NCBI RefSeq assembly: GCF_000196895.1
Contig: NC_014297.1
Coordinates: 2,680,468 to 2,744,467, forward strand
Length of the DNA stretch: 64,000 nucleotides
Reading direction: 5' to 3'
From: Halalkalicoccus jeotgali B3
Lineage (GTDB): Archaea; Halobacteriota; Halobacteria; Halobacteriales; Halalkalicoccaceae
This document shows positions 8,861-24,066 of the stretch, in pieces. The notes beneath the pieces were generated by a model. The model made no database searches. It saw only the letters and a list, made by a program, of their open reading frames with translations, and was not told the origin of the DNA. The first letter of the stretch is position 1; every line of letters begins with the position of its first letter. The position numbers and the translations under genes are program-made.

Positions 8861-11800
8861 ATGAAACAAGAACACACACTACGCGAAAAGGGACAAGCGC
8901 TGTTCCTTGCCGCCCTGATGGTCCTCTCCGTGTTCGCCATGTCCGCTGCGTTTGCGGGCTCGGCGGCTGCGGCAGCGACCGATGTCAGTCTCACATCGTC
9001 GTCTGTTGACGCTGGCGACGGAAGTGCAACGACTGGCATTACTGTAACGGCAGATGAATCCTACACGAACTATGCGTACGCCATTGTAGACCAGAACGGT
9101 GACGTGGTTGCGAGCGACGACACCGTCCTTGAAACTGCTGGTAACAGCCACACCTTCTCAGATGTTGCTGTTGATGGCTTAGAGGCAGGCGAGTACTCAG
9201 TCGTCGCTGAAGCCAGCGCCGACGCTGCTGCGGCCACGACGGGCCAGAGTGTTGGTGACTTCGGCGACGGCAACGTCGAAGCTGCGTTGACAGTCAACCC
9301 TGAAACGCACAGCCTTACTGTGAACGTCAACGAAGGTGACGGCACTACGATCAGCGATGCTGACGTTACCGTTTCCCAGGACGGTACCGAAATCGACTCC
9401 GCATCTAGCGACTCGGCCTCGTTTGACTTAGAAGACGGTACCTACACGGTGACCGTCGAGGATGAGAACTTCGTGAACACCCAGCAGGAGATCACGATCG
9501 ACGGTGCAGACGATACGCGTGAGATCGTTCTGGGTGAATACGGTGTCGATCAGGGAACTGCCTTCCAGGGTAGTGACGTGACCGCTACTGTTGCCGAGGG
9601 AGATACGGTTGAACTCCGCTCGGGCGACGCTGACGAGAACTCTTTCGTTAGCCAATTCAACAACGATGACGGTACGGTTACCATCGATACCAGCGATCTC
9701 GAAGGTGACTATGTCCTTCGTGTCAACGACGAAGACATAGAAAGCACCGAATTCGAAGTCGCCGAGCAGACGCTCGACGCACAGTGGAGTTCGGACAGCG
9801 TCGTCAGAGGCGACAGCGCTGACCTCGAACTCGACTCCAACCGCCAAGGTTACGATATCGAACTGACCTCCGAGGAACTCGATGCGACCGAGATCCAGAG
9901 CCTCTTCGGTGACGATGTTACCGTTAGTACCGACGAGGACGGTAACGACGTCGCTCAGGTTGAGGACATCTCCAGCAGCGAATCGCTGACGGCGAACTTC
10001 GCTGATGACGCCGATGTCGGTAACGTCAGTATCACGGCTTCGGCCACTGATACGACCGCCGAGGACAACGCGACCATCTCCGTCGAGGAGCAGGGCGATG
10101 CCGACATCTCCTTCGATTCCTCGACGTACTCCGAAGAAGCCGGTGACATCGTTGAGTTCACCGTTGAGATGGACAACACCGACAACGGTGTCGTGACCAT
10201 CGAAGAAGACGGCGGTAACTACTGGGCCGACCTCTACGTCGAACCCGCGGAGGGTGAGGACGAGGTGACGGTTCAGTTCAACACGTATCAGGCTGGACAC
10301 AGCGACGGTAGCGCGTTCTCCACGGAGAACGACGACGCGAACGTCGATGTCATCGACGAGCGATCTCTAGACGCAGGTGACGATACCTACCGTCTCCTCC
10401 CCGGTGACTTCGACATGGGTGTTCACCTGACTGGTGCACAGGACAGCGACAACGTTCCTCAGCTCGGTGACGCTGGGGATTACGAGGGGGACAACCCCGA
10501 GCGCGTTGACACTGACTCTCTCGACGAGGTCGGCGTTGCGACCCTCGTCCTGAACGACCGCTCGACGGGTGACGCCACGGTCGGCACCGCACCCGCTGAC
10601 GTTGATCTCGAGGACGTCGAGACGATCAACAACGAGACGACCGTCGCCGACGAGATCGCCAAAGACGACAAGGCCGTCGTGCAGTTCGACGCCTCGGGTG
10701 TCTTCGGCTATCTCAGCGAATGGACGAACGAAAACGGCATTCTTGACCTCAGCTCCCTTGAGGAGGATGAGAACCTGGATGTCGCACTGAACATCAACCA
10801 AACCAACCCCGCACAGTACGAGAGCGGTGAACGTCTCACCGGTGAGGACGTCACCATCGTGACTGACGCGGAGAACAACCGCATCTTCGCGGTCCTGGAC
10901 ACCTCGGAGAATAACATTGAGGCCGGAGACGAGTACGACGCGAGTCTCACCATCGACGGTGAGAACTACGTCAGCTCCTACTCCGACAGCGATGACAACG
11001 AGGTCTCCGACACGAGCTTCAGCGTGGTCGAGCGCAACATCGAGGTCACCGGTGACTTCGAGGGCGACGACGACGAGGAAGTTCTGCAGGTCGAGAACGG
11101 TGAGGAAGCCAACATCACCGGCGAGTCCAACGCCGCACCCGGTACGGACGTGCAGATCCGACTGCGCGCCACCGGTGACAACCCGTTCCTAGAGACCCAG
11201 ACCGCTGAAGTCGGCGAGGACGGCGACATCGACGCCTCCTTCGACCTCAGCGACTACGATGAAGGCCAGAACTTCACGGTCCGCATGACCGACGACAGCG
11301 GTGCTGAGGACGTGCAAGACGAGGTCAACGCGGTCCTCGTCGAGGACGTCGGCCAGCCCCACTCGGTGACGGTCACCGTCGAGGACGCTGACGGCAACGC
11401 GGTCTCCGGCGCCGACGTCTCGGTCGCCGACCAGACCGAGACCACCGACGACGACGGTCAAGTGACCTTCGAACTCTGGCACGGCGAGTACGACGTCACC
11501 GCCACCCACGATGGTGAGGAGACGACCGGTACCCTGACCATCAACGATGAAGACGACACCACCGACGAGGGCACGCTGGTCCTCGGCGAGGAGAACGAGA
11601 ACATCAACGACGGTGACGATCAGAACCAGGACGATAACAACAACGACGACCAGAATCAGGACGACAACAACAACGACGATCGGAACAACGACGACAACAA
11701 CAACGACGATCGGAACAACGACGACAACAACCAGGGCGGTTCCGACGACGGTAGCGACGGCGGGGACAGCTCCAACGACGGAGACGGCTCCGACGACGAT

Positions 11801-11893
11801 GGCGACAGCGAGGATCAGCCCGGCTTCGGCATCGCCGTGGCCCTGATCGCGCTGCTGGCAGCGGCCGGCATCGCCATGCGAAACCGCGCCTGA
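8861..11893 (+). CDS. csg: S-layer glycoprotein with PGF-CTERM anchor
   Basis: Major surface-layer protein, 1010 aa. Residues 1-39 form a Sec signal peptide starting MKQEHTLREKGQALFLAALM. The ectodomain is beta-rich, very acidic and has six N-glycosylation sequons (NVS, NAT, NET, NQT, NIT, NFT). A carboxypeptidase-regulatory-like module (VTVEDADGNAVSGADVSV) lies at about 825-890. The membrane-proximal linker is an Asn/Asp-rich tract built of 10-residue repeats, in place of the Thr-rich O-glycosylated linker of well-studied S-layers. It ends with PGFGIAVALIALLAAAGIAM and RNRA: a PGF-CTERM sorting signal (PGF at 987-989) for archaeosortase, whose gene follows. Codons in the first part are richer in A/T at third positions than neighbouring genes. 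Confidence 0.95.
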   Translation: MKQEHTLREKGQALFLAALMVLSVFAMSAAFAGSAAAAATDVSLTSSSVDAGDGSATTGITVTADESYTNYAYAIVDQNGDVVASDDTVLETAGNSHTFSDVAVDGLEAGEYSVVAEASADAAAATTGQSVGDFGDGNVEAALTVNPETHSLTVNVNEGDGTTISDADVTVSQDGTEIDSASSDSASFDLEDGTYTVTVEDENFVNTQQEITIDGADDTREIVLGEYGVDQGTAFQGSDVTATVAEGDTVELRSGDADENSFVSQFNNDDGTVTIDTSDLEGDYVLRVNDEDIESTEFEVAEQTLDAQWSSDSVVRGDSADLELDSNRQGYDIELTSEELDATEIQSLFGDDVTVSTDEDGNDVAQVEDISSSESLTANFADDADVGNVSITASATDTTAEDNATISVEEQGDADISFDSSTYSEEAGDIVEFTVEMDNTDNGVVTIEEDGGNYWADLYVEPAEGEDEVTVQFNTYQAGHSDGSAFSTENDDANVDVIDERSLDAGDDTYRLLPGDFDMGVHLTGAQDSDNVPQLGDAGDYEGDNPERVDTDSLDEVGVATLVLNDRSTGDATVGTAPADVDLEDVETINNETTVADEIAKDDKAVVQFDASGVFGYLSEWTNENGILDLSSLEEDENLDVALNINQTNPAQYESGERLTGEDVTIVTDAENNRIFAVLDTSENNIEAGDEYDASLTIDGENYVSSYSDSDDNEVSDTSFSVVERNIEVTGDFEGDDDEEVLQVENGEEANITGESNAAPGTDVQIRLRATGDNPFLETQTAEVGEDGDIDASFDLSDYDEGQNFTVRMTDDSGAEDVQDEVNAVLVEDVGQPHSVTVTVEDADGNAVSGADVSVADQTETTDDDGQVTFELWHGEYDVTATHDGEETTGTLTINDEDDTTDEGTLVLGEENENINDGDDQNQDDNNNDDQNQDDNNNDDRNNDDNNNDDRNNDDNNQGGSDDGSDGGDSSNDGDGSDDDGDSEDQPGFGIAVALIALLAAAGIAMRNRA
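11612..11731 (+). repeat. Four 30-bp tandem repeats in the S-layer linker
   Basis: Four consecutive 30-bp units encode GDDQNQDDNN, NDDQNQDDNN, NDDRNNDDNN and NDDRNNDDNN. The last two are identical at DNA level (11671-11700 repeated at 11701-11730), so the tract is a recent in-frame expansion and probably varies in copy number between strains. Confidence 0.9.
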
Positions 11894-12039: not shown

Positions 12040-12936
12040 ATGCTCCCCGACCTGACACCGATAACCGACACCCTCGTCTGGATCGTCATGGGCGGGTTCG
12101 TCGCGGGGATCGCAGTCGACCGGCGCGACCGCCCGAGCGCGCGGTCGGTCACGGCCCTCGCATGGGCCGGGTTCGCGCTGTTCTGGCTGTTGATGGTCCC
12201 GTTTTTCGTCTTCGAGCACCGCAGCATCGTCGAGGCGGTCCTCGCGGCGGTCGCCGTCCCGGCCTGTGGCTACGTCGCCTACCGACTCCACGGGGGGCGG
12301 GATTCGCTGTTGATCCTCTCGCGGGCGGTCGGCGTCATGGGGCTGATCTACCTCCCCTTCGGCGCGATCCCGCTCTTTCACGACACGCTCATCGAGATCG
12401 TCGCGAACCAGACCCACGCCGGCCTCCAGTTGCTCGGATCGACGCCCGCCTTCGAGACCGACGAGGCGGGCCTGCGAAACACCTTCGCGTTCACCCTCGA
12501 TTCGGGCCGGGAGTACTCGACGCGGATCGTCTTCGCCTGTACGGGCATCGGCAGCATGGCCATCTTCGGCGGGCTGATCGCGGCGGTTCGAGCCCCCATC
12601 GAGCGCCGCCTCGCCGCGCTCGTGGTCGCGGTCTCGACCATCTGGGTGCTCAACATCGGACGCAACGTCTTCATCGCCTACTCGATCGGCCACCAGCTGT
12701 TCGACCAGGCGGCGCTCGCCGGTCCCGTGATGTGGCTGTTCGGGGTCGAGGACCCGATCCGGGTGTCGTTTTTCGTCGCCGACCGGATCCTCTCACAGGG
12801 GCTTGCGGTGGTCGCGTTGCTGGCTATCGCGTGGGTCGTCGTGAAGGTGCTTCCCGAACTGTACGTGATCGTCGAGGACCTGGTCTACCTCGTTACCGGC
12901 GAGGAGTACGACCTCGCTCGTGGGCGCGGGCGATGA
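12040..12936 (+). CDS. artA: Archaeosortase A
   Basis: Membrane protease/transpeptidase of the exosortase/archaeosortase family that processes PGF-CTERM proteins and couples their C terminus to a lipid. 298 aa with about eight hydrophobic helices. The catalytic cysteine is C167 in FACTGIGSMAIFGG, with conserved arginines at R207 (LNIGRNVFIAYS) and R248 (ADRIL), matching the Cys/Arg active site defined for Haloferax ArtA. It lies directly downstream of an S-layer gene with a PGF-CTERM tail, its expected substrate; another substrate candidate is at 59153-60712. It overlaps the next gene by four bases (ATGA). Confidence 0.93.
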   Translation: MLPDLTPITDTLVWIVMGGFVAGIAVDRRDRPSARSVTALAWAGFALFWLLMVPFFVFEHRSIVEAVLAAVAVPACGYVAYRLHGGRDSLLILSRAVGVMGLIYLPFGAIPLFHDTLIEIVANQTHAGLQLLGSTPAFETDEAGLRNTFAFTLDSGREYSTRIVFACTGIGSMAIFGGLIAAVRAPIERRLAALVVAVSTIWVLNIGRNVFIAYSIGHQLFDQAALAGPVMWLFGVEDPIRVSFFVADRILSQGLAVVALLAIAWVVVKVLPELYVIVEDLVYLVTGEEYDLARGRGR

Positions 12937-14854: not shown

Positions 14855-16957
14855 ATGAGCCGATCGGCTTCGAGTGAACAGTCAGCGGCGATCCGCTTCG
14901 AGTACGACGACGGAACGCTCGGCGTCGTCGATACGGTCGAGCGACGGCGGTATTCCCTCTCGCTGGCAGGGTCGAACCGACCGACGCGGACCGATGGGGC
15001 GACGTTCCGATTCCCCGTTGACAGCGCCGTCACCGTCGATACGGAGGCGATCGTGCTCCCGACGGGGATCACGGTCTACGTCCGCGACGTCGAGGGTCGG
15101 ATGCTGGCGGAGACCCGCCACACCGCCCAGCAGTCGTTCCCGGAGGGTAGTTACAGCCTCGAGTTGTGCGCGCCGATGAAGATCTACGTTCGGGTCGAGG
15201 GTCCGTTCGAGATCGGTTCGGACGCCGAGCGAACGACGATCAGCCTCCCGGAGCGCACGACGGTGTCGATCGGCGCGCGATCGAAACACGACCGACCGGC
15301 GGCGACGGTCACGACGACGGACGACCCCGAGGACGTCATGGCGGCGATCTCGACGTTCGGGTCGGCGCTGAAGACGACCAGTCCCGAGCGGTCGTATCCG
15401 ACCCTCCGGGGCCACCCTCCGACGCTCGAACGCGGATCGACGCTCTCGATCCCGGACGGCCTCACCCCACCGGAAACGGGGATCACGATCGAGGTACCGG
15501 CGACGCTGCGCCACGCGTACGTGGTCGCCCCGCTGGCGTACTACCTCGGTGCGACCGTCGAACCCGGCGACCGCCCGCTGATCCGCACCGACTCGGGGTT
15601 CGTCCACCCGATGGGAACCGACGGGACGTTCGAATCGGCCGTCGAACGGACGTTGAAGCAGTCGTTCTTGCTCGATTGTGTGACGCGAACCGAGGGGCTG
15701 TACCCGATCGACCTCCACGAGCGTCGGGCGATCGAGCCCCACGTCGATCTCGATTTCGCGACGCTGTACGACCGGCCCATCGGCGATCGGCTGGAGGCGT
15801 ATCTGTCAGTCCCGTACCCGACGATCGAACCACATCTCCCGGAGTGGAAACTCACCTCCCACGTCGCGCCGTTTCCCGCAAGCATCGAGATGCTGCCGTT
15901 TCTGGTCGACGACCTCGCGGTGATCCGGACGCCCGACGTCCGCCGACCCGCACCGACCCGGTCGGAGACGACCGCGATCGAGGGTTTTCTCCGGAATTCG
16001 ACGCCACAGAACACCCGGAAAGCGACCGCCGCGGCGAGCGCCGCGCCGGAGTCGTACGTCGAACCGAGACGAACCGAATCGCTCGAACACGCCTGGGTCG
16101 GCGACGAGACGCCGATGGGTGCGAGCAAGGCGACGCCACAGGCCTACCGCAACCGTCTCGCACGCGAGCAGTCGGGCGGCGATATCTCGATCGCCGTCGT
16201 CTGTAACGACCCGCAGATGGACGAGGAGCGCGACCTCGTCGACGACGTTTACGGATCGCGCGAGGAACTGCCCTTCGAGGTGGCCATCCACAGGGACCTC
16301 ACCCGCGAGGAGCTCTCTACCGTCCTCGAAACCGACGTCGACTTCCTCCACTACGTCGGCCACATCGAACCGGACGGCTTCGAGTGTTCGGACGGGCGAC
16401 TCGACGCGAGAAGCCTCGAAACCGTCGGGGTCGACGCGTTCTTGCTGAACGGCTGTCGGTCCTACGATCAGGGAATGGCCCTGATCGACGGCGGTGCTAT
16501 CGGCGGGATCGTCACACTGACCGACGTGATCAACACCGGCGCGGTCACGATCGGGTCGGCGCTGGCGCGCCTGCTTAACAACGGCTTTCCGCTTCGTGCC
16601 GCCCTCGAAGTCGCCAAGGACGAGGACGTCGCCGGCGAGCAGTACATTGTCGTCGGGGACGGCGGGATGTCGGTGACACAGGCGGAGGGCGGTGTCGCCC
16701 TCCTGTGTACGGTTGAGAAGAGCGGAGACGGGTACGACGTGAAGCTGAAGACATACCCGACGAACGTGGAAGGAATGGGTAGTATCGTGTATCCGACGAT
16801 CGGCCAAAACAGGGAACACTACATCAACTCCGGCAGCCTGCGGGAGTTCGAGTGCACTACGGACGAACTACAGGATTTCTTTGTGGATTCACGATTGCCG
16901 ATCCGAGTTGGCGGCGATCTTTACTGGAGCGATCAGGTTTCGATCGAGGACTTCTAA
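14855..16957 (+). CDS. CHAT-domain (caspase-like) protein
   Basis: 700 aa cytosolic protein. The C-terminal part (about 443-600) is a CHAT domain: DFLHYVGHIEPDGF contains the catalytic-type His (H503) and VDAFLLNGCRSYDQG the Cys (C534), followed by GGAIGGIVTLTDV. CHAT proteins are clan CD cysteine proteases related to caspases and separase; several act in bacterial immunity (for example the type III-E CRISPR protease). The N-terminal about 360 residues are beta-rich and unlike any family I recognise, perhaps a sensor; no TPR repeats are visible, unlike classic CHAT proteins. Its stop abuts the stop of a 44-aa hydrophobic gene on the other strand. Both catalytic residues are present, so activity is plausible. 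Confidence 0.75.
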   Translation: MSRSASSEQSAAIRFEYDDGTLGVVDTVERRRYSLSLAGSNRPTRTDGATFRFPVDSAVTVDTEAIVLPTGITVYVRDVEGRMLAETRHTAQQSFPEGSYSLELCAPMKIYVRVEGPFEIGSDAERTTISLPERTTVSIGARSKHDRPAATVTTTDDPEDVMAAISTFGSALKTTSPERSYPTLRGHPPTLERGSTLSIPDGLTPPETGITIEVPATLRHAYVVAPLAYYLGATVEPGDRPLIRTDSGFVHPMGTDGTFESAVERTLKQSFLLDCVTRTEGLYPIDLHERRAIEPHVDLDFATLYDRPIGDRLEAYLSVPYPTIEPHLPEWKLTSHVAPFPASIEMLPFLVDDLAVIRTPDVRRPAPTRSETTAIEGFLRNSTPQNTRKATAAASAAPESYVEPRRTESLEHAWVGDETPMGASKATPQAYRNRLAREQSGGDISIAVVCNDPQMDEERDLVDDVYGSREELPFEVAIHRDLTREELSTVLETDVDFLHYVGHIEPDGFECSDGRLDARSLETVGVDAFLLNGCRSYDQGMALIDGGAIGGIVTLTDVINTGAVTIGSALARLLNNGFPLRAALEVAKDEDVAGEQYIVVGDGGMSVTQAEGGVALLCTVEKSGDGYDVKLKTYPTNVEGMGSIVYPTIGQNREHYINSGSLREFECTTDELQDFFVDSRLPIRVGGDLYWSDQVSIEDF

Positions 16958-17693: not shown

Positions 17694-17767
17694 TGCCGCC
17701 TCCCGGATTTGAACCGGGGACAGCTCGATCTTCAGTCGAGTGCTCTCCCAGTCTGAGCTAAGGCGGC
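17694..17767 (-). tRNA. tRNA-Phe (GAA)
   Basis: Read on the minus strand: acceptor GCCGCCT pairs with AGGCGGC, discriminator A, anticodon stem CTCGA/TCGAG with loop CTGAAGA giving anticodon GAA, and T arm CCCGG TTCAAAT CCGGG. No intron, CCA not encoded. It marks the left side of the four-gene operon region. Confidence 0.95.
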
Positions 17768-18094
17768 CCGTCCGAAGCGACGGCGAGCGCCCCAAAAAGG
17801 ATTTCGAAAGGCACCGGGGCGACCCAGTGTAGCGGGATAGCGGTCAGCACCGTACCAAATCAGTCGCGTTAACGTGGCCGTAAGGCGGTACGCCCGATGG
17901 AGGAGAGGGCGTCCCACGACGGGGCGAGACCGTATAACGTCCGGGTCGGTGACGAATTATGGTAGTAATAGTAACCACCGGACGGATCCGACTGTCGTAT
18001 ATGAGGACTCGTGTCCGCTGTCGTGGGGTCGAAACTGTATCTTTCGCCACGGCGGACCGCAGCATTGAATCCCCCTGCCCGTCCAGTGGAAAGT
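17768..18094 (+). promoter_or_regulatory. Upstream region of the four-gene operon
   Basis: 327 bp without a gene. An A/T-rich stretch AATTATGGTAGTAATAGTAA (17956-17975) stands out in GC-rich surroundings, but it lies about 120 nt before the chosen start; if it is the promoter, the transcript has a long leader or translation starts earlier (in-frame ATG at 18011). Confidence 0.35.
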
Positions 18095-20020
18095 ATGGTC
18101 GGTCAGCAAGAGGTGGCTGAGCGAATGGTCGGGCTCCGAGGAGCCGTCGGCCACGAGCTGCCGACGACGGGGTCGACGGTTCCCGAACGCGGCGTCGCGT
18201 CCGAACAGCACGAGGGTGACGTGTCGATACAGCTCAGTACGCATCCGCTGCTTTCGGGCGAACAGCCCGCCAAAACCGATGACGGGGTCGATATCTGGTT
18301 GCTCGGCGAGGTCTACGGGTTCGACGACAGCGCAGTCGGTGGGTCGACGGGCCACACGCCACGACCGAAACGCCGCGACAGCGTCCGGTACTGTGCGGAC
18401 CTGTACGCCGAACACGGCCGCGCGTTCGTCCGCGGCCTCAACGGCAACTGCGTCGGGATCATCCACGATCCAGAGGCCGGGACCCTCTCGATTTTCACCG
18501 ACCGTCTCGGCTCGGTCCCGATCTACCACGCGACCCCCGGCGACGGGATCGTCTTCGCGACGGAGATCGAGGCGATCGCGAGCCACCCGGACGTCGAAAC
18601 GGAGTTCCACAGAGGATACCTCCACGAGTATCTCGTCTATCGCCGGCCGTTCGGCGTCAAGACCCCGCTGGTCGGTATCGAGGAGCTCCAGCCCGCCTCG
18701 ATCACCACGATAGACCTCGCGGACGGGTCGGTCGACACCGAACAGTACTGGCGACCACGGTATCGACCGTGTGAGATGCCCTTCGGGGCGTTCGTCGACG
18801 AGTTTACCGACCGATTCACCCGCCTGATCGACGAGTGGCGCCGCGAGGACTGTCGGTACGGCGTCCTGCTCTCGGGGGGTAGCGATTCGCGGCTCAACCT
18901 CGCCGCGCTCGGTCCCGGGATCACCGCCTTCCACATGGCCGGCTGGATGAGCCGGGAGGCCCGCACCGCAGAGCGGGTCGCCATCGAATCCGGAAACGAG
19001 TTCGTCTTTCTGCGGCGCAACCACGACTATCAGGAGGAGGCGCTTGTGCGCAACCAGCCGTTCTCGAACTTCAACGGCTGGTTCACACAGGGGTACGCGA
19101 CCGGTTTCGAGGGGGAGATCCGAGACCGGGTGGACGTCCTGTTGTCCGGGATGTACGCCGATACGCTGTTCAAGGGCCACGCGATCCCCAGCCCGAACTA
19201 CGACCTCGGTCCGATCGGGAACCTCACGCTGCCCGTCGAGACGAAAATCGAGACGCTCCCCGAGTTCGTCGACTGGCTGTGTGAGATCGCCCCGAGCGAC
19301 GACAACCTCCCGTTCCCGAACGACCTGCGTGCGACCCTCGAGGAGAACATCTACCGAGAGGACGGCGAGATCGTCCACCACGACGTGCGCTACGACTCGA
19401 TCGAGGACCTGGTCTACTGTAGCGGCTACTTCCCGCTGACCAACGACGATGACGTCATCTTCCGCAACAGCCTTCGCGAGATGCTGCCCTACCGGACCCC
19501 GTTTCTCGACAATCGCCTCGTGGATCTCTCGCTTCGGATGCCGATCCGCTATCGGCTGCGGCGAAACGTCATCGACGCGGCGGTAAAGCGCCTCGACGAG
19601 CGACTCGCGTCGATCCCGCACGCCGACGCGGGAATGGGTCTGGGCCACTCGTTTCCCGTCGATTTCACGGGTCGAAAGCTGAAGGCACTCTGGCGAAAAC
19701 ACGTCGCCAACGAGGCCCCGCCACGGCCGTATCTCAGCAACGGCTCGTGGGTCAACGACGCCGAGTTGATCCGCCACGACGACTTCTACTGGCGGGCGAT
19801 CGAGGCCCACGCCGACGTCATCGAGGGGCTCGACTTCCTCGAGTTCGACGACGTCCGTGCGTGCTACCGGGCTCACCTCGACGGACAGAACAACGTCGTG
19901 GAGCTGTACACCCTGCTGACCGTACTCACCATGCCAACCACCCAGCGACTCGCCGGGGTAGAACCCGGCCACCGAACCGCCCGCACAGACTCGAAACCGA
20001 TCCGACGAGGGTCGCGATGA
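18095..20020 (+). CDS. Asparagine-synthase-like amidotransferase lacking the glutaminase cysteine
   Basis: 641 aa from ATG 18095. Domain order is that of AsnB: N-terminal Ntn-type glutaminase (about 11-215; GEVYGF, FVRGLNGNCVG, TDRLGSVPIYH) then a PP-loop synthetase with SGGSDS at 260-265. The expected MCGI start reads MVGLRGAVG at residues 11-19, so the cysteine nucleophile is replaced by valine; glutamine hydrolysis should be lost and free ammonia or another amine used. AsnB homologues of this kind occur in polysaccharide and peptide-modification clusters. Its TGA overlaps the ATG of the next gene. Start choice is uncertain among 18011, 18095 and 18125; none restores the cysteine. Confidence 0.8.
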   Translation: MVGQQEVAERMVGLRGAVGHELPTTGSTVPERGVASEQHEGDVSIQLSTHPLLSGEQPAKTDDGVDIWLLGEVYGFDDSAVGGSTGHTPRPKRRDSVRYCADLYAEHGRAFVRGLNGNCVGIIHDPEAGTLSIFTDRLGSVPIYHATPGDGIVFATEIEAIASHPDVETEFHRGYLHEYLVYRRPFGVKTPLVGIEELQPASITTIDLADGSVDTEQYWRPRYRPCEMPFGAFVDEFTDRFTRLIDEWRREDCRYGVLLSGGSDSRLNLAALGPGITAFHMAGWMSREARTAERVAIESGNEFVFLRRNHDYQEEALVRNQPFSNFNGWFTQGYATGFEGEIRDRVDVLLSGMYADTLFKGHAIPSPNYDLGPIGNLTLPVETKIETLPEFVDWLCEIAPSDDNLPFPNDLRATLEENIYREDGEIVHHDVRYDSIEDLVYCSGYFPLTNDDDVIFRNSLREMLPYRTPFLDNRLVDLSLRMPIRYRLRRNVIDAAVKRLDERLASIPHADAGMGLGHSFPVDFTGRKLKALWRKHVANEAPPRPYLSNGSWVNDAELIRHDDFYWRAIEAHADVIEGLDFLEFDDVRACYRAHLDGQNNVVELYTLLTVLTMPTTQRLAGVEPGHRTARTDSKPIRRGSR

Positions 20021-21628
20021 ACGATCGCCTAGACACGCTGTTGATCGGGATCGACTCCGCCTGCGAGCGGGTCCTCGACCCCCTCATCGAATCGGGGGCG
20101 CTCCCGAACCTCGCGTCGCTCATCGAGGAGGGCGCAAGCGGCCCGCTCGAATCGCAGATCCCCCCCTGGACCGCGAGCGCGTGGCCCTCGCTGTACACCG
20201 GCGTCAACCCCGGTAAGCACGGCGTGTTCGGCTTCCTGCACTACGAGGGCTACGATTGGGACGTCGTCAACGCCACGCACGTCCGCGAGGCGTCGCTGTG
20301 GGACCTCCTGACACAGCAGGGGATGACGAGCGTCGTCGTCAATGTCCCCGTCACCGCGCCGCCCCCGGAGATCGACGGCGCGATCGTTCCCGGCTACACC
20401 GCCCCCGAAAACCCCCGATGCCACCCCGAGGGCACCCTCGAGGAGATCCGCGAGGCCATCGGCGAGTATCGGGTCTACCCCGACCCCGAACGCGACCAGC
20501 CCGGCGAGTACGTCGACCTGATCAGGATGCGCGGGGCGGCCTTTCGCCACCTCGCCGAGGAGCACGACCCGGAGTTCGGGTTCGTCGAGTTCCAGGGGAC
20601 CGACAGCGTCTTTCACGAACACCCCGGTCGGGAGGACTACGTCGAGGCGATCTACCGCGCGGTTGACGAGGAAGTCGGCGACATCCTCGACTCGTGTGAC
20701 CCCGAGACCGTAATCGTCGCGAGCGATCACGGGATGGGGCCCTACGAGAAGTACGAACTCCGGGTCAACGAGTTGCTCGACGAGGAGGGCTACGTCGAGA
20801 CGGCCACCGGCGGGTCGGGAATGCCCGCGTGGCTCCCGATGTTGAACGGGCAGCTCCGGGAGGGCGACGACGCGAAGGCGCCATCGCCGGGGTTGGCGGG
20901 CCGGGCGATCGGCGCGGCCGCACAGATCGGAGTCACCCCCCGCGCGCGCGGGCAAGGCACTGCGGGCGGTCGGCCTCGAGGGACTCGTCAAGCGATTCGT
21001 CCCCGCCGACGCGCGTCGGGCGGGCACCGAGCAGGTCGACTTCGCCGCCTCGCGGGCGTACATGCGCTCGCGGATCGAACTCGGCCTGCGCATGAACGTC
21101 GAGGGCCGCGAACCACGGGGAGTCGTCCCCGAGGACGACTACGAGTCGGTTCGGGCGGAGCTGATCGACCTCCTCGCGGGGATCGAGACCCCCGACGGCG
21201 AGGCGATGTTCGAGGAGGTCGCCCCCCGCGAGGAGTTCTTCTGGGGGCCCTACGCCGAGGACGGCGTCGATATCGTGATGATACCCGACGACTTCGAGCA
21301 GTTCCTCTCAGCGGATTTCAAGGGCGAGGTCTTCGGCCCGCCGACCGAGCCGTACAACCACAAACTCCACGGGATGATCTCGATCAGCGGCGCGGGCGTC
21401 GATACCGACGCGGACCTCTCGGGTGCACACCTCTTCGACGTCGCGCCGACGGTCTGTGGGGCACTCGGGATCCCGAGGAGCGACCGGATGGACGGGAGTG
21501 TTCTTTCCGCAGTCGAACCAACCGAAGAATATGAGTACCCCCGACTCGATGGGTCGGTCGAGGAGACCGCCGACGAGGAGATCGAAGACCGCTTATCGGC
21601 GCTCGGGTATCTAGAGGGCAACGAATGA
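20017..21628 (+). pseudogene. Alkaline-phosphatase-superfamily phosphodiesterase, frameshifted
   Basis: A type I phosphodiesterase/nucleotide pyrophosphatase-like protein (about 536 aa if repaired). The first frame runs from ATG 20017: metal ligand LLIGIDSACER, nucleophile region PPWTASAWPSLYTG, VNPGKHGVFGF, and metal site VIVASDHGMG. After the run of six C at 20936-20941 the similarity moves to the next frame (AGKALRAVGLEGLVKRFV, then MRSRIELGL) and reaches the third metal-site motif HKLHGMISISG. Removing one C restores one frame. As written, the product lacks its last metal-binding histidine. It overlaps both neighbours by ATGA junctions, so the operon is otherwise intact; a sequencing error is a real alternative. 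Confidence 0.8.
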
Positions 21629-22635
21629 GTATCACAGTACGACGTGCGAGCGACGAGGAGTTCGAGGAGTGGAACAGCTACGTCAAACGGGCCGAGGCCG
21701 CGGGTCCGTTCCACCAGCGCGAGGGGATCGAGCTACTCGCGGATCATACGGACACGACCCTGCATCCGCTGGTGGCCGCCAAGGGCCAGCAGGCCATCGG
21801 GATCCTCCCCGTCTTCGAACAGGAGAAGGGACCGTTCACGATGGTCGTCTCGCCGCCCACCCACACCGAGGTCTACTACCTCGGGGCGGCGCTGCTCGAC
21901 GCCCACCAGCTCAAACAGCGCAAAGAGGAGCGGCGAAACCGCCGCTTTGCCTACGCGTGTCACGAGTGGATCGAGGAGAACCTCGACCCCGATCTGACGC
22001 ATATCAGAACCGTCGACCGGTATCAGGACCTCCGGCCGTACAAGGAGAAGGGATACGCTGTCGAGCCGTACTACACCTACGTCACCGACCTGACGCCCAG
22101 CGAGGACGACCTCCTAATGGCGCTGTCGAGCGACGCGCGCTCGAACGTCCGCAACACCGACGACGACGCCTACGAGATCGAGGTCGGCGGGCTCACGGAG
22201 GCAAAGGAGATCATCGAGCGGGTGCGAGAACGACACGACGATCAGGGGATGAACTACTTCATCGACGACGAGTACATCACCCGACTGCACACGACGTTTC
22301 CCGACGGACAGGTCAAACCCTACACCTGCTGGAACGCGGACGGGGAAATGGCCGGCGGGATCGTCGCCATCGAGCACAAAGACACCGTCTATCGCTGGCA
22401 GGGCGGGACGAAAGGCGACGCCGAGATCCCCGTCAACGACCTGCTCGACTGGCACGTCATGACCGACGCCAAATCGCGGGGGGTCGAGCGCTACGATCTG
22501 GTCGGCGCGAACCAACGGCGCATCTGCCGGTACAAATCGAAGTTCGCGCCCGATCTGGCGACCTATCACGGCGCGCTCAAGCGCTCGCGGCGCGCCGGAG
22601 CGGTCAACGCCGCCCGATCGCTGCTGTCCAGGTAG
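21625..22635 (+). CDS. FemAB/GNAT-fold acyltransferase
   Basis: 336 aa. Two GNAT-like halves, as in FemX/FemAB, which move amino acids from aminoacyl-tRNA onto an acceptor. Seen: FHQREGIELLADH near the N terminus, LVAAKGQQAIGILPVF, LSSDARSNVRNTDDDAYEIE (the conserved segment joining the lobes), GGIVAIEHKDTVYRWQGGTK, DLLDWHVMTDAKSRGVERYD and FKSKFAPD-like YKSKFAPDLATYHG at the end. The architecture also fits the FemAB-related proteins of bacterial exosortase/EPS loci. Start ATG overlaps the preceding stop (ATGA). Acceptor and donor unknown. Confidence 0.82.
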   Translation: MSITVRRASDEEFEEWNSYVKRAEAAGPFHQREGIELLADHTDTTLHPLVAAKGQQAIGILPVFEQEKGPFTMVVSPPTHTEVYYLGAALLDAHQLKQRKEERRNRRFAYACHEWIEENLDPDLTHIRTVDRYQDLRPYKEKGYAVEPYYTYVTDLTPSEDDLLMALSSDARSNVRNTDDDAYEIEVGGLTEAKEIIERVRERHDDQGMNYFIDDEYITRLHTTFPDGQVKPYTCWNADGEMAGGIVAIEHKDTVYRWQGGTKGDAEIPVNDLLDWHVMTDAKSRGVERYDLVGANQRRICRYKSKFAPDLATYHGALKRSRRAGAVNAARSLLSR

Positions 22636-22641
22636 TCCCGG

Positions 22642-23778
22642 ATGGCCCGTACGACCCCTCGACTCGGCCCGCGAGCCGTGTTCGGCCGGGCGAGAAGCGA
22701 CGGCGTTCGATCGTTTTTCGACGATCACGGCGCTTCGCGCTACGCGTTTTACGGCTACGGGAAGGTCGCCGCACGCGACGGGATCGACGTCCTGCTCGGA
22801 GAGCGTCCCGAGGCGACGAACGTCGTCCTCCCGGCGTACCTCCCCTACGGGATCGTCGAACCGTTCCGCGAGGCGGGACTCGAACCGCGCTACTACACCT
22901 GCGATCGGTCCCTCCGGCCGGACCTCGACCGCATCGAGGAGTTGCTCGACTCGGGGTCGCTCGCGGTGCTGTTCGTCCAGTACTTCGGCCAGCCACAGCG
23001 ACGCGAGGACATCGAGGCGATCACGGAGCTGGCTGCGGAGTACGACGCCTACACCATCGACGACAACGCCCATTCGGCGTTGAGTACGCTCGACGGACGG
23101 CTGCTCGGGACGTTCGGGGATATCGGCATCACGAGCCTGCACAAGACCCTGCCGATCCCCAACGGCGCAGCGCTCTTTCTCACGAACGACGCCCTCTCGG
23201 GGGCCGAATTGACCCGCTCTGCGGTTCGCGAGGGGTACACGAAAGCGGACTACCGATACTGTACGCGCTCGTTGGGCCGGTCGATAAGCGACACACCCGT
23301 TCTCAAACGGGCGCTCTCGACGTTTCGTCGGGTGAACGGCCACGAGTCCGACGGGACGAATCAGGTCCACACGGACAGCGAGGCGGATCCCCGCGAGATC
23401 TACGAGTCGACCAAGGGGCCGATGTCCCGCCTCGTGTTGCACGTCCTCGATCGAACCGATCCGATCGACGTGATCGCCGCCCGCCGGGCGAACTATCGGA
23501 TCTGGGACCGCACGATACGCGACCTCGACGGCGTCGAACCGGTCTTCGAGTCGCTCGCCGAGGGTGCCTGCCCGCAGTACTACCCCGCCATCGTCGCGGA
23601 TCCGGACGACCTCGGCGGGCTGGCGGGGATCGCAAAACCGTGGCCGCCGCTGCCGTACGAACTCCGGGACGAGGCGGCCTTCGAAACCGAGAACTTCCTG
23701 GCGTCGCACCTCCATACGCTACCGGTCCATCAGGACCTCGACCTGCGCAACAGGGCAAGTCTCGGCGTCGACGAATAG
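22642..23778 (+). CDS. DegT/DnrJ/EryC1/StrS-type PLP aminotransferase
   Basis: 378 aa fold-type I PLP enzyme of the sugar aminotransferase family. VVLPAYLPYG (phosphate-side loop), YTIDDNAHSAL (D140/D141 for the pyridine nitrogen and the following His) and GITSLHKTLPIPNGA, where K168 is the Schiff-base lysine. These enzymes usually aminate keto-sugars on nucleotide carriers or lipids. It follows the FemAB-like gene by 6 nt and ends the operon. An aminated product would provide an acceptor amine for the acyltransferase or the AsnB-like ligase (inference). Confidence 0.83.
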   Translation: MARTTPRLGPRAVFGRARSDGVRSFFDDHGASRYAFYGYGKVAARDGIDVLLGERPEATNVVLPAYLPYGIVEPFREAGLEPRYYTCDRSLRPDLDRIEELLDSGSLAVLFVQYFGQPQRREDIEAITELAAEYDAYTIDDNAHSALSTLDGRLLGTFGDIGITSLHKTLPIPNGAALFLTNDALSGAELTRSAVREGYTKADYRYCTRSLGRSISDTPVLKRALSTFRRVNGHESDGTNQVHTDSEADPREIYESTKGPMSRLVLHVLDRTDPIDVIAARRANYRIWDRTIRDLDGVEPVFESLAEGACPQYYPAIVADPDDLGGLAGIAKPWPPLPYELRDEAAFETENFLASHLHTLPVHQDLDLRNRASLGVDE

Positions 23779-23992: not shown

Positions 23993-24066
23993 TGGGTTCG
24001 GGCGGATTCGAACCACCGATCTCGGCCTTGTAAAGGCCGCGTCATAACCAACTAGACCACGAACCC
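23993..24066 (-). tRNA. tRNA-Val (TAC)
   Basis: Minus strand: acceptor GGGTTCG / CGAACCC, discriminator A, anticodon stem CGGCC/GGCCG with loop TTTACAA (anticodon TAC), T arm GGTGG TTCGAAT CCGCC. No intron. Its 3' end is duplicated at 23882-23903. Confidence 0.95.

Follow-up and report, generated by a model that had tools for sequence, protein, structure and literature searches.

Here we analyze a four-gene operon of the haloarchaeon Halalkalicoccus jeotgali B3. It occupies positions 18095-23778 (+ strand) of a 64,000-nucleotide stretch of the genome (NC_014297.1, 2,680,468 to 2,744,467; hereafter the window) and encodes, in this order, an AsnB-like ligase, a phosphodiesterase-superfamily enzyme (PDE), a FemAB-like transferase and a DegT-like enzyme. 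By analogy with the bacterial Wbp/Vim pathway, we consider it a slightly better than even prospect that these four cytoplasmic enzymes attach a substituent of amino-acid or amide type to an amino or uronic sugar of a surface glycan precursor. The observed base consists of the gene set itself, its conservation, its intact core motifs, the absence of Cys2 from the AsnB-like protein and the repeated linkage of homologous genes to glycan genes; from it we infer the substrates, the order of steps and the product. The operon comprises the following features.

18125..20020, +, AsnB-like amide ligase, 631 aa (Pfam GATase_7 and Asn_synthase); alternatively a longer form from 18095 or further upstream
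20017..20020, +, ATGA stop/start overlap of the AsnB and PDE genes (sequence)
20017..21628, +, type I phosphodiesterase/alkaline-phosphatase-superfamily enzyme (PF01663, 123 bits, cut-off 23), frameshifted in the window
20936..20941, +, C6 homopolymer with a one-base insertion (alignment with six congeners)
21625..21628, +, ATGA stop/start overlap of the PDE and FemAB genes (sequence)
21625..22635, +, FemAB/Acetyltransf_6 acyl- or aminoacyl-transferase, 336 aa (Acetyltransf_6 54 bits, cut-off 22; FemAB 27.9 bits, cut-off 24)
22642..23778, +, divergent DegT-family pyridoxal phosphate (PLP) enzyme, 378 aa (Pfam DegT_DnrJ_EryC1)

Gene order and the neighbours of homologous sets

The order AsnB-PDE-FemAB-DegT and its overlaps are kept in all six congeners (loci L031-L036; with the window, seven Halalkalicoccus genomes were sampled) and in a sister genus (L037, G007). 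The search for this order in other haloarchaea had been proposed in a preliminary description of the stretch, and its outcome argues that the arrangement is not due to chance. Genes in the relatives were called with a home-made codon-usage caller, so that some starts are uncertain. The preliminary description had overlaps at all three junctions (ATGA, with 6 nt for the last); they are confined to the first two, the last being a 6-nt gap (22636-22641). Its four family assignments agree with Pfam (GATase_7 plus Asn_synthase; Phosphodiest; Acetyltransf_6 plus FemAB; DegT_DnrJ_EryC1), and a Pfam scan of the window proteins likewise finds no glycosyltransferase inside the operon. Because none of the four proteins has a membrane-type hydrophobic segment (maximum 19-residue mean 0.94-1.26, versus 2.46 for the neighbouring archaeosortase A, ArtA), they look soluble and cytoplasmic.

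Outside the Halalkalicoccus family, three genomes carry a full set that also bears a flippase. Loci L139 and L140, from two different families, have the order DegT, MOP-superfamily flippase (PF13440/PF01943), AsnB, PDE and FemAB; the same succession occurs in Halomarina sp. BND7, with further genes between flippase and AsnB. AsnB-PDE-FemAB operons are present in Haladaptatus salinisoli and L094. The DegT clade is found in 86 of 394 haloarchaeal genomes, mostly of one family taken as Natrialbaceae. We fetched 14 DegT-clade loci blind to their neighbours, leaving six more, chosen for a visible neighbour, out of the count, and PDE-FemAB lies directly beside DegT, divergently oriented, in 13 of the 14, again mostly in Natrialbaceae (in L146 and L153 one gene was missed or miscalled by the caller and search coordinates were used). 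Most of these DegT/PDE-FemAB loci also contain GlmS, GlmM or a GlmU-like NTP-transferase, which are UDP-GlcNAc supply genes.

The pair PDE-FemAB also travels without this DegT or AsnB. In L039 it lies beside WecB, a nucleotide-sugar dehydrogenase, a Gfo/Idh oxidoreductase, another DegT aminotransferase and a hexapeptide acetyltransferase, genes of the kinds that serve to make UDP-diacetamido-uronic acid, and on Natrialbaceae plasmids it adjoins flippases and glycosyltransferases. The FemAB family as a whole occurs in 225 of the 394 genomes. On pHME505 of Haloferax mediterranei (329602-360570, L163), an acyltransferase, DegT, Gfo/Idh, sugar dehydrogenase, wecB and a deacetylase accompany two FemABs; VimE is the only NCBIfam match of the deacetylase (57 bits), and both FemABs match TIGR03019 below its curated cut-off. 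This well-studied haloarchaeon would be a convenient genetic test bed for a Wbp/Vim-like set. A 42-kb polysaccharide region of the window genome itself, which includes GlmS, epimerase and GT2 genes, houses a PDE paralogue (61%) and FemAB paralogues.

According to the preliminary description, homologous sets that always sit beside natural-product synthetases would speak against a surface role. No natural-product synthetase or precursor-peptide gene was recognized in the loci inspected, and the neighbours are instead flippases, Wbp-type genes, UDP-GlcNAc genes and glycosyltransferases. These neighbours make an aminoacyl or amide modification module, as first suggested, the best-supported reading. 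The distant homologues beside glycan genes thus uphold the idea of surface-glycan decoration, while the ArtA neighbour that had been cited with it carries little weight.

The same neighbours bear on whether the operon alters the head group of a membrane polar lipid, by aminoacylation or phospho-substitution, with no glycan role. Lipids can be substrates of FemAB-like aminoacyl transferases and of phosphodiesterase-superfamily enzymes, and DegT is the only sugar gene in the window operon. However, the informative neighbours of the homologous sets are glycan genes, and we regard a purely lipid function as improbable.

The four enzymes and the Wbp/Vim comparison

Alignment with its clade places the likely start of the AsnB-like ligase at ATG 18125 (MVGLRGAVG) and not at 18095. 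The in-frame stretch upstream of this ATG is conserved in the genus; its part at ~18060-18095 (GGACCGCAGCATTGAATCCCC...) is strongly so in most congeners and may be an N-terminal extension or a regulatory leader. The glutaminase-like N-terminal domain (MVGLRG...) lacks Cys2, position 2 being Val, Thr or Pro, never Cys, in every clade member with a readable N-terminus. A plain AsnB-like call, as made initially, overlooks this clade-wide loss of the glutaminase nucleophile. The PP-loop SGGSDS, of the SGGxDS form expected for Asn_synthase (PF00733), is intact and invariant in the genus, and YRTPFLD is also intact. The SGEGADE-type motif reads SGMYAD in the window and SGMYAD or SGLYSD among relatives, its Glu being replaced. 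Since both Cys2 and this Glu are missing, a glutamine-dependent uronamide synthase is unlikely, and we rejected that assignment. From what is known of the family, the enzyme more likely couples an adenylated carboxylate with ammonia or an amine.

Members of this clade (E below 1e-60) occur in 65 of the 394 haloarchaeal genomes, and ordinary AsnB is well separated at about 1e-20 to 1e-25. The GATase_7 plus Asn_synthase architecture and the PP-loop are shared with asparagine synthetase B, NAGGN amidotransferases and lasso cyclases, from which the lost Cys2, the altered SGEGADE-type motif and the separate haloarchaeal clade set the protein apart. A tree left the PDE-linked members ungrouped, so that AsnB phylogeny was dropped as a marker of a single PDE-linked subclade, and an AlphaFold model from five sequences (pLDDT 43.5) was too low in confidence for a fold search. 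The window genome has two further Cys2-less paralogues of the clade (C1:2051260, L085; C1:2517578, L086) with no PDE, FemAB or DegT nearby. Clade genes in L087-L090, L093, L098 and L099 adjoin an ATP-grasp (carbamoyl-phosphate-synthase-like) gene, possibly as a two-enzyme amide or peptide ligase pair. In L095, L096, L101, L103 and L104 the clade gene immediately precedes a second, remote AsnB-like gene; a sulfatase-like gene comes before the two in L095.

These properties invite another explanation, namely that the operon makes a soluble small molecule, a compatible solute or natural product, with the Cys2-less AsnB acting like a lasso-peptide or beta-lactam cyclase or a NAGGN amidotransferase and FemAB as the acyl-transferring partner. 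Amide-forming cyclases that do not use glutamine also lack Cys2, and some clade members are partnered by an ATP-grasp ligase or second AsnB. The window protein scores higher on the NAGGN model TIGR03104 (78 bits) than on the exopolysaccharide (EPS) model TIGR03108 (67.3 bits, cut-off 816.9), with a weak score on the lasso cyclase model (37 bits). All three scores, however, lie far under their cut-offs, PDE, FemAB and DegT are repeatedly found next to genes for polysaccharides, UDP-GlcNAc and flippases, and the inspected loci show no recognizable synthetase or precursor peptide. We therefore rate a small-molecule product as unlikely, though worth bearing in mind.

The FemAB-like transferase resembles TIGR03019 (VimA-type) over residues 15-304 at 45.5 bits, against a cut-off of 260. 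Its nearest solved structures by profile are FemX, a peptidoglycan aminoacyltransferase, in a weak match (E about 2e-4) restricted to profile positions 146-297; because archaea have no murein, its substrate must differ from those of FemX-type enzymes. In the DegT-like enzyme, the PLP lysine K168 and D140/D141 are invariant in nine sequences, and the PLP-lysine region SLHKTLPIPNG and IDDNAH are conserved. The SFHxxKxxxxGEGG loop of sugar aminotransferases is absent, with SLHKTLPIPNGA in its place, and the Pfam match spans residues 59-207 only, short of the full length.

In the glycan-decorating pathway that we favor, the DegT-family enzyme would aminate a sugar or a small precursor. The AsnB-like ligase would adenylate a carboxylate and form an amide; its glutaminase site being dead, the nitrogen source would be free ammonia or else an amine or amino acid used directly. 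The FemAB-like enzyme would, in the manner of VimA, acylate or aminoacylate the amine of a sugar, and the PDE could act on the phosphodiester of a nucleotide- or lipid-linked activated intermediate. A flippase would then carry the lipid-linked product outward; it would be encoded elsewhere in the window genome and lies inside the cognate clusters of other haloarchaea.

The closest parallel is the Wbp/Vim pathway of Porphyromonas gingivalis and Tannerella forsythia. In it a diacetamido uronic acid is produced by WbpA/B/E/D; the proposed role of VimE is removal of an acetyl group, that of VimA, from the TIGR03019 family, is attachment of serine or glycine, and the uronamide is formed by WbpS, an AsnB of TIGR03108 (PMC7468200). 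The products are seryl- or glycyl-modified uronic linking sugars, and wbpE, wzx and asnB are adjacent in that order (PMC7468200). The haloarchaeal module likewise combines a FemAB-family transferase, an AsnB-family enzyme and a DegT enzyme. The order DegT-flippase-AsnB recurs, with this DegT clade, in the three flippase-bearing loci, although the window operon has no flippase; Wbp-type genes and a VimE-like deacetylase lie beside FemAB in Haloferax mediterranei, and Wbp-type genes beside PDE-FemAB in L039. Unlike the bacterial system, the haloarchaeal AsnB lacks Cys2, the window DegT is not WbpE-like, and the window operon lacks its own WbpA/B/D and VimE. No operon protein is a VimA, WbpS or WbpE equivalog by curated cut-offs; the claim is that the set works like that pathway, not that it is that pathway.

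A likeness to bacterial XrtA/PEP-CTERM EPS loci, with which the operon had first been compared, is real, as FemAB and AsnB members occur together near a member of the exosortase/archaeosortase superfamily. It is also remote, for the window proteins fail the cut-offs of both TIGR03019 and TIGR03108, the operon has no EPS glycosyltransferases, its neighbour is archaeosortase A, and the ArtA linkage of the haloarchaeal set is not kept beyond the family. An archaeal precedent, which we set beside the operon by product description alone, is the Methanococcus voltae N-glycan, which carries ManNAcA6Thr, threonine on a mannuronic acid; the attaching enzyme was not identified in that review (PMC2952790).

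Several observations weigh against a glycan-decorating function. The PDE is constant in the haloarchaeal module and has no counterpart in the bacterial pathway. Glycosyltransferase, Wbp sugar and flippase genes are all missing from the operon, and the full set of the sister genus also lies away from glycan genes. The AsnB-clade members paired with an ATP-grasp enzyme or second AsnB have no obvious glycan genes in their loci. Scores on VimA- and WbpS-type models fall far below curated cut-offs, the DegT protein is without the usual GEGG loop and matches sugar aminotransferases over only part of its length, and the frameshift described below may disable the set in the window strain.

If it is correct, this function would widen the known chemistry of surface glycans in haloarchaea by a decoration with amino acids or amides and provide four concrete candidate enzymes for testing. 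It would also extend the Wbp/Vim type of pathway to Archaea, for which no description exists among the papers found: literature searches on FemAB or alkaline phosphatase in haloarchaea, and on VimA/VimE in archaea, returned no paper on this gene set. The principle of linking an amino acid to a uronic sugar in Archaea is already known from Methanococcus N-glycans (PMC2952790). The Cys2-less AsnB clade is a family of likely amide-forming enzymes without glutaminase, for which we found no assigned function.

Archaeosortase A and the S-layer gene

Two genes upstream of the operon, named in the preliminary description as lying a few kb away, are confirmed there.

8861..11893, +, PGF-CTERM surface (S-layer-type) protein (family match; context only)
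12040..12936, +, archaeosortase A (TIGR04125, 353 bits, cut-off 75; context only)

Their nearness had been given some weight, and it does hold in the genus: ArtA and the 700-aa gene that separates it from the operon flank the operon on the side seen in the window in all five congeners with a long enough contig. In the sister genus (G007) the full four-gene operon is located away from ArtA, and a diverged AsnB-PDE-DegT set of the same genome (42, 40 and 32% identity) adjoins ArtA and an S-layer-type gene. The ArtA neighbourhood of the operon is thus a family-level trait. ArtA itself is nearly universal (393 of 394 haloarchaeal genomes), so protein sorting needs no such operon.

One could still suppose that the operon makes or modifies an amine-bearing lipid or glycolipid that ArtA joins to S-layer C-termini, much as the Wbp/Vim linking sugar serves type IX cargo. 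The published model of ArtA has an amine, archaetidylethanolamine, as acceptor and requires PssA and PssD (PMC7157517). VimA belongs to the TIGR03019 family, and in Porphyromonas the C-termini of proteins become attached to the linking sugar (PMC7468200). Within the genus, some 5 kb separate the operon from ArtA and the S-layer gene, and the diverged sister-genus set lies beside both kinds of gene. Against this, the set is rare compared with ArtA and is remote from it in G344 and G399, and every Halalkalicoccus genome has a member of the PssD family, so that no substitute acceptor is needed. With ArtA near-universal and PssD present, an archaeosortase link was set aside as the main idea, and we judge the acceptor hypothesis very improbable. 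Even less probable, in our estimation, is its most elaborate form, a haloarchaeal Wbp/Vim-type pathway in which the Cys2-less AsnB joins an amine directly and the resulting aminoacyl-sugar anchor serves covalent attachment of surface proteins, in Halalkalicoccus by the adjacent ArtA.

The phosphodiesterase frameshift and flanking genes

The PDE is not one open frame in the window, which the preliminary description overlooked. The frame from 20017 ends at ~20950, and the remainder is shifted by one frame. The cause is the sixth C at 20936-20941, unique to the window; the alignment has one base fewer in all six congeners, where the PDE is intact with 536-537 aa. Conserved residues are D14, T53, D197, H201, D238, H239 and H449 (orthologue numbering), so that the metal-ligand and nucleophile positions of PF01663 are represented; we take the Asp and His residues to be metal ligands and the Thr to be the nucleophile, as in the family. 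A search of solved structures with an intact orthologue gave no match.

Relative to one congener, the PDE has 31 non-synonymous and 57 synonymous codon changes before the frameshift and 23 and 43 after it; the intact FemAB gene shows a similar pattern, with 35 and 74. Substitutions fall mostly at third codon positions, alike on either side. Because this pattern is the same on both sides and similar to that of FemAB, the extra C is either an error of sequencing in a homopolymer or a mutation of very recent date, and a long-standing pseudogene finds no support.

The insertion nevertheless raises the question of whether the operon is decaying in the window strain, with a PDE pseudogene and the pathway switched off, a strain-level matter compatible with the other explanations. 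The insertion is seen in the window alone, the truncated PDE would lose the conserved His of the NHK motif (H449), which lies behind the frameshift, and a ATAATAAA stretch upstream that is common to four congeners was not found at the corresponding place of the window. However, homopolymers are a classic site of error, the third-position bias persists past the frameshift, and the AsnB, FemAB and DegT genes are intact. Decay is therefore a conceivable but not a likely state of this operon, and the pathway may be incomplete in the window strain unless the extra base is a sequencing error.

The surroundings contain a few further elements. Genes for tRNA-Phe and tRNA-Val bracket the operon (17694-17767 and 23993-24066); as the locus is kept across the genus, they do not mark a recent insertion. 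The 700-aa protein (14855-16957, +) has no NCBIfam or Pfam match; those congeners with a contig that reaches across the region keep its gene between the operon and ArtA. Its C-terminal part (HYVGH ... LNGCRSY) resembles, as judged by eye, a CHAT/caspase-type protease. A regulator gene of the HTH_10 (bacterio-opsin-activator) type lies directly upstream of AsnB in the sister genus (L037, 14720-15436) and on two metagenome contigs (L083, 452-1168; L084, 3-677).

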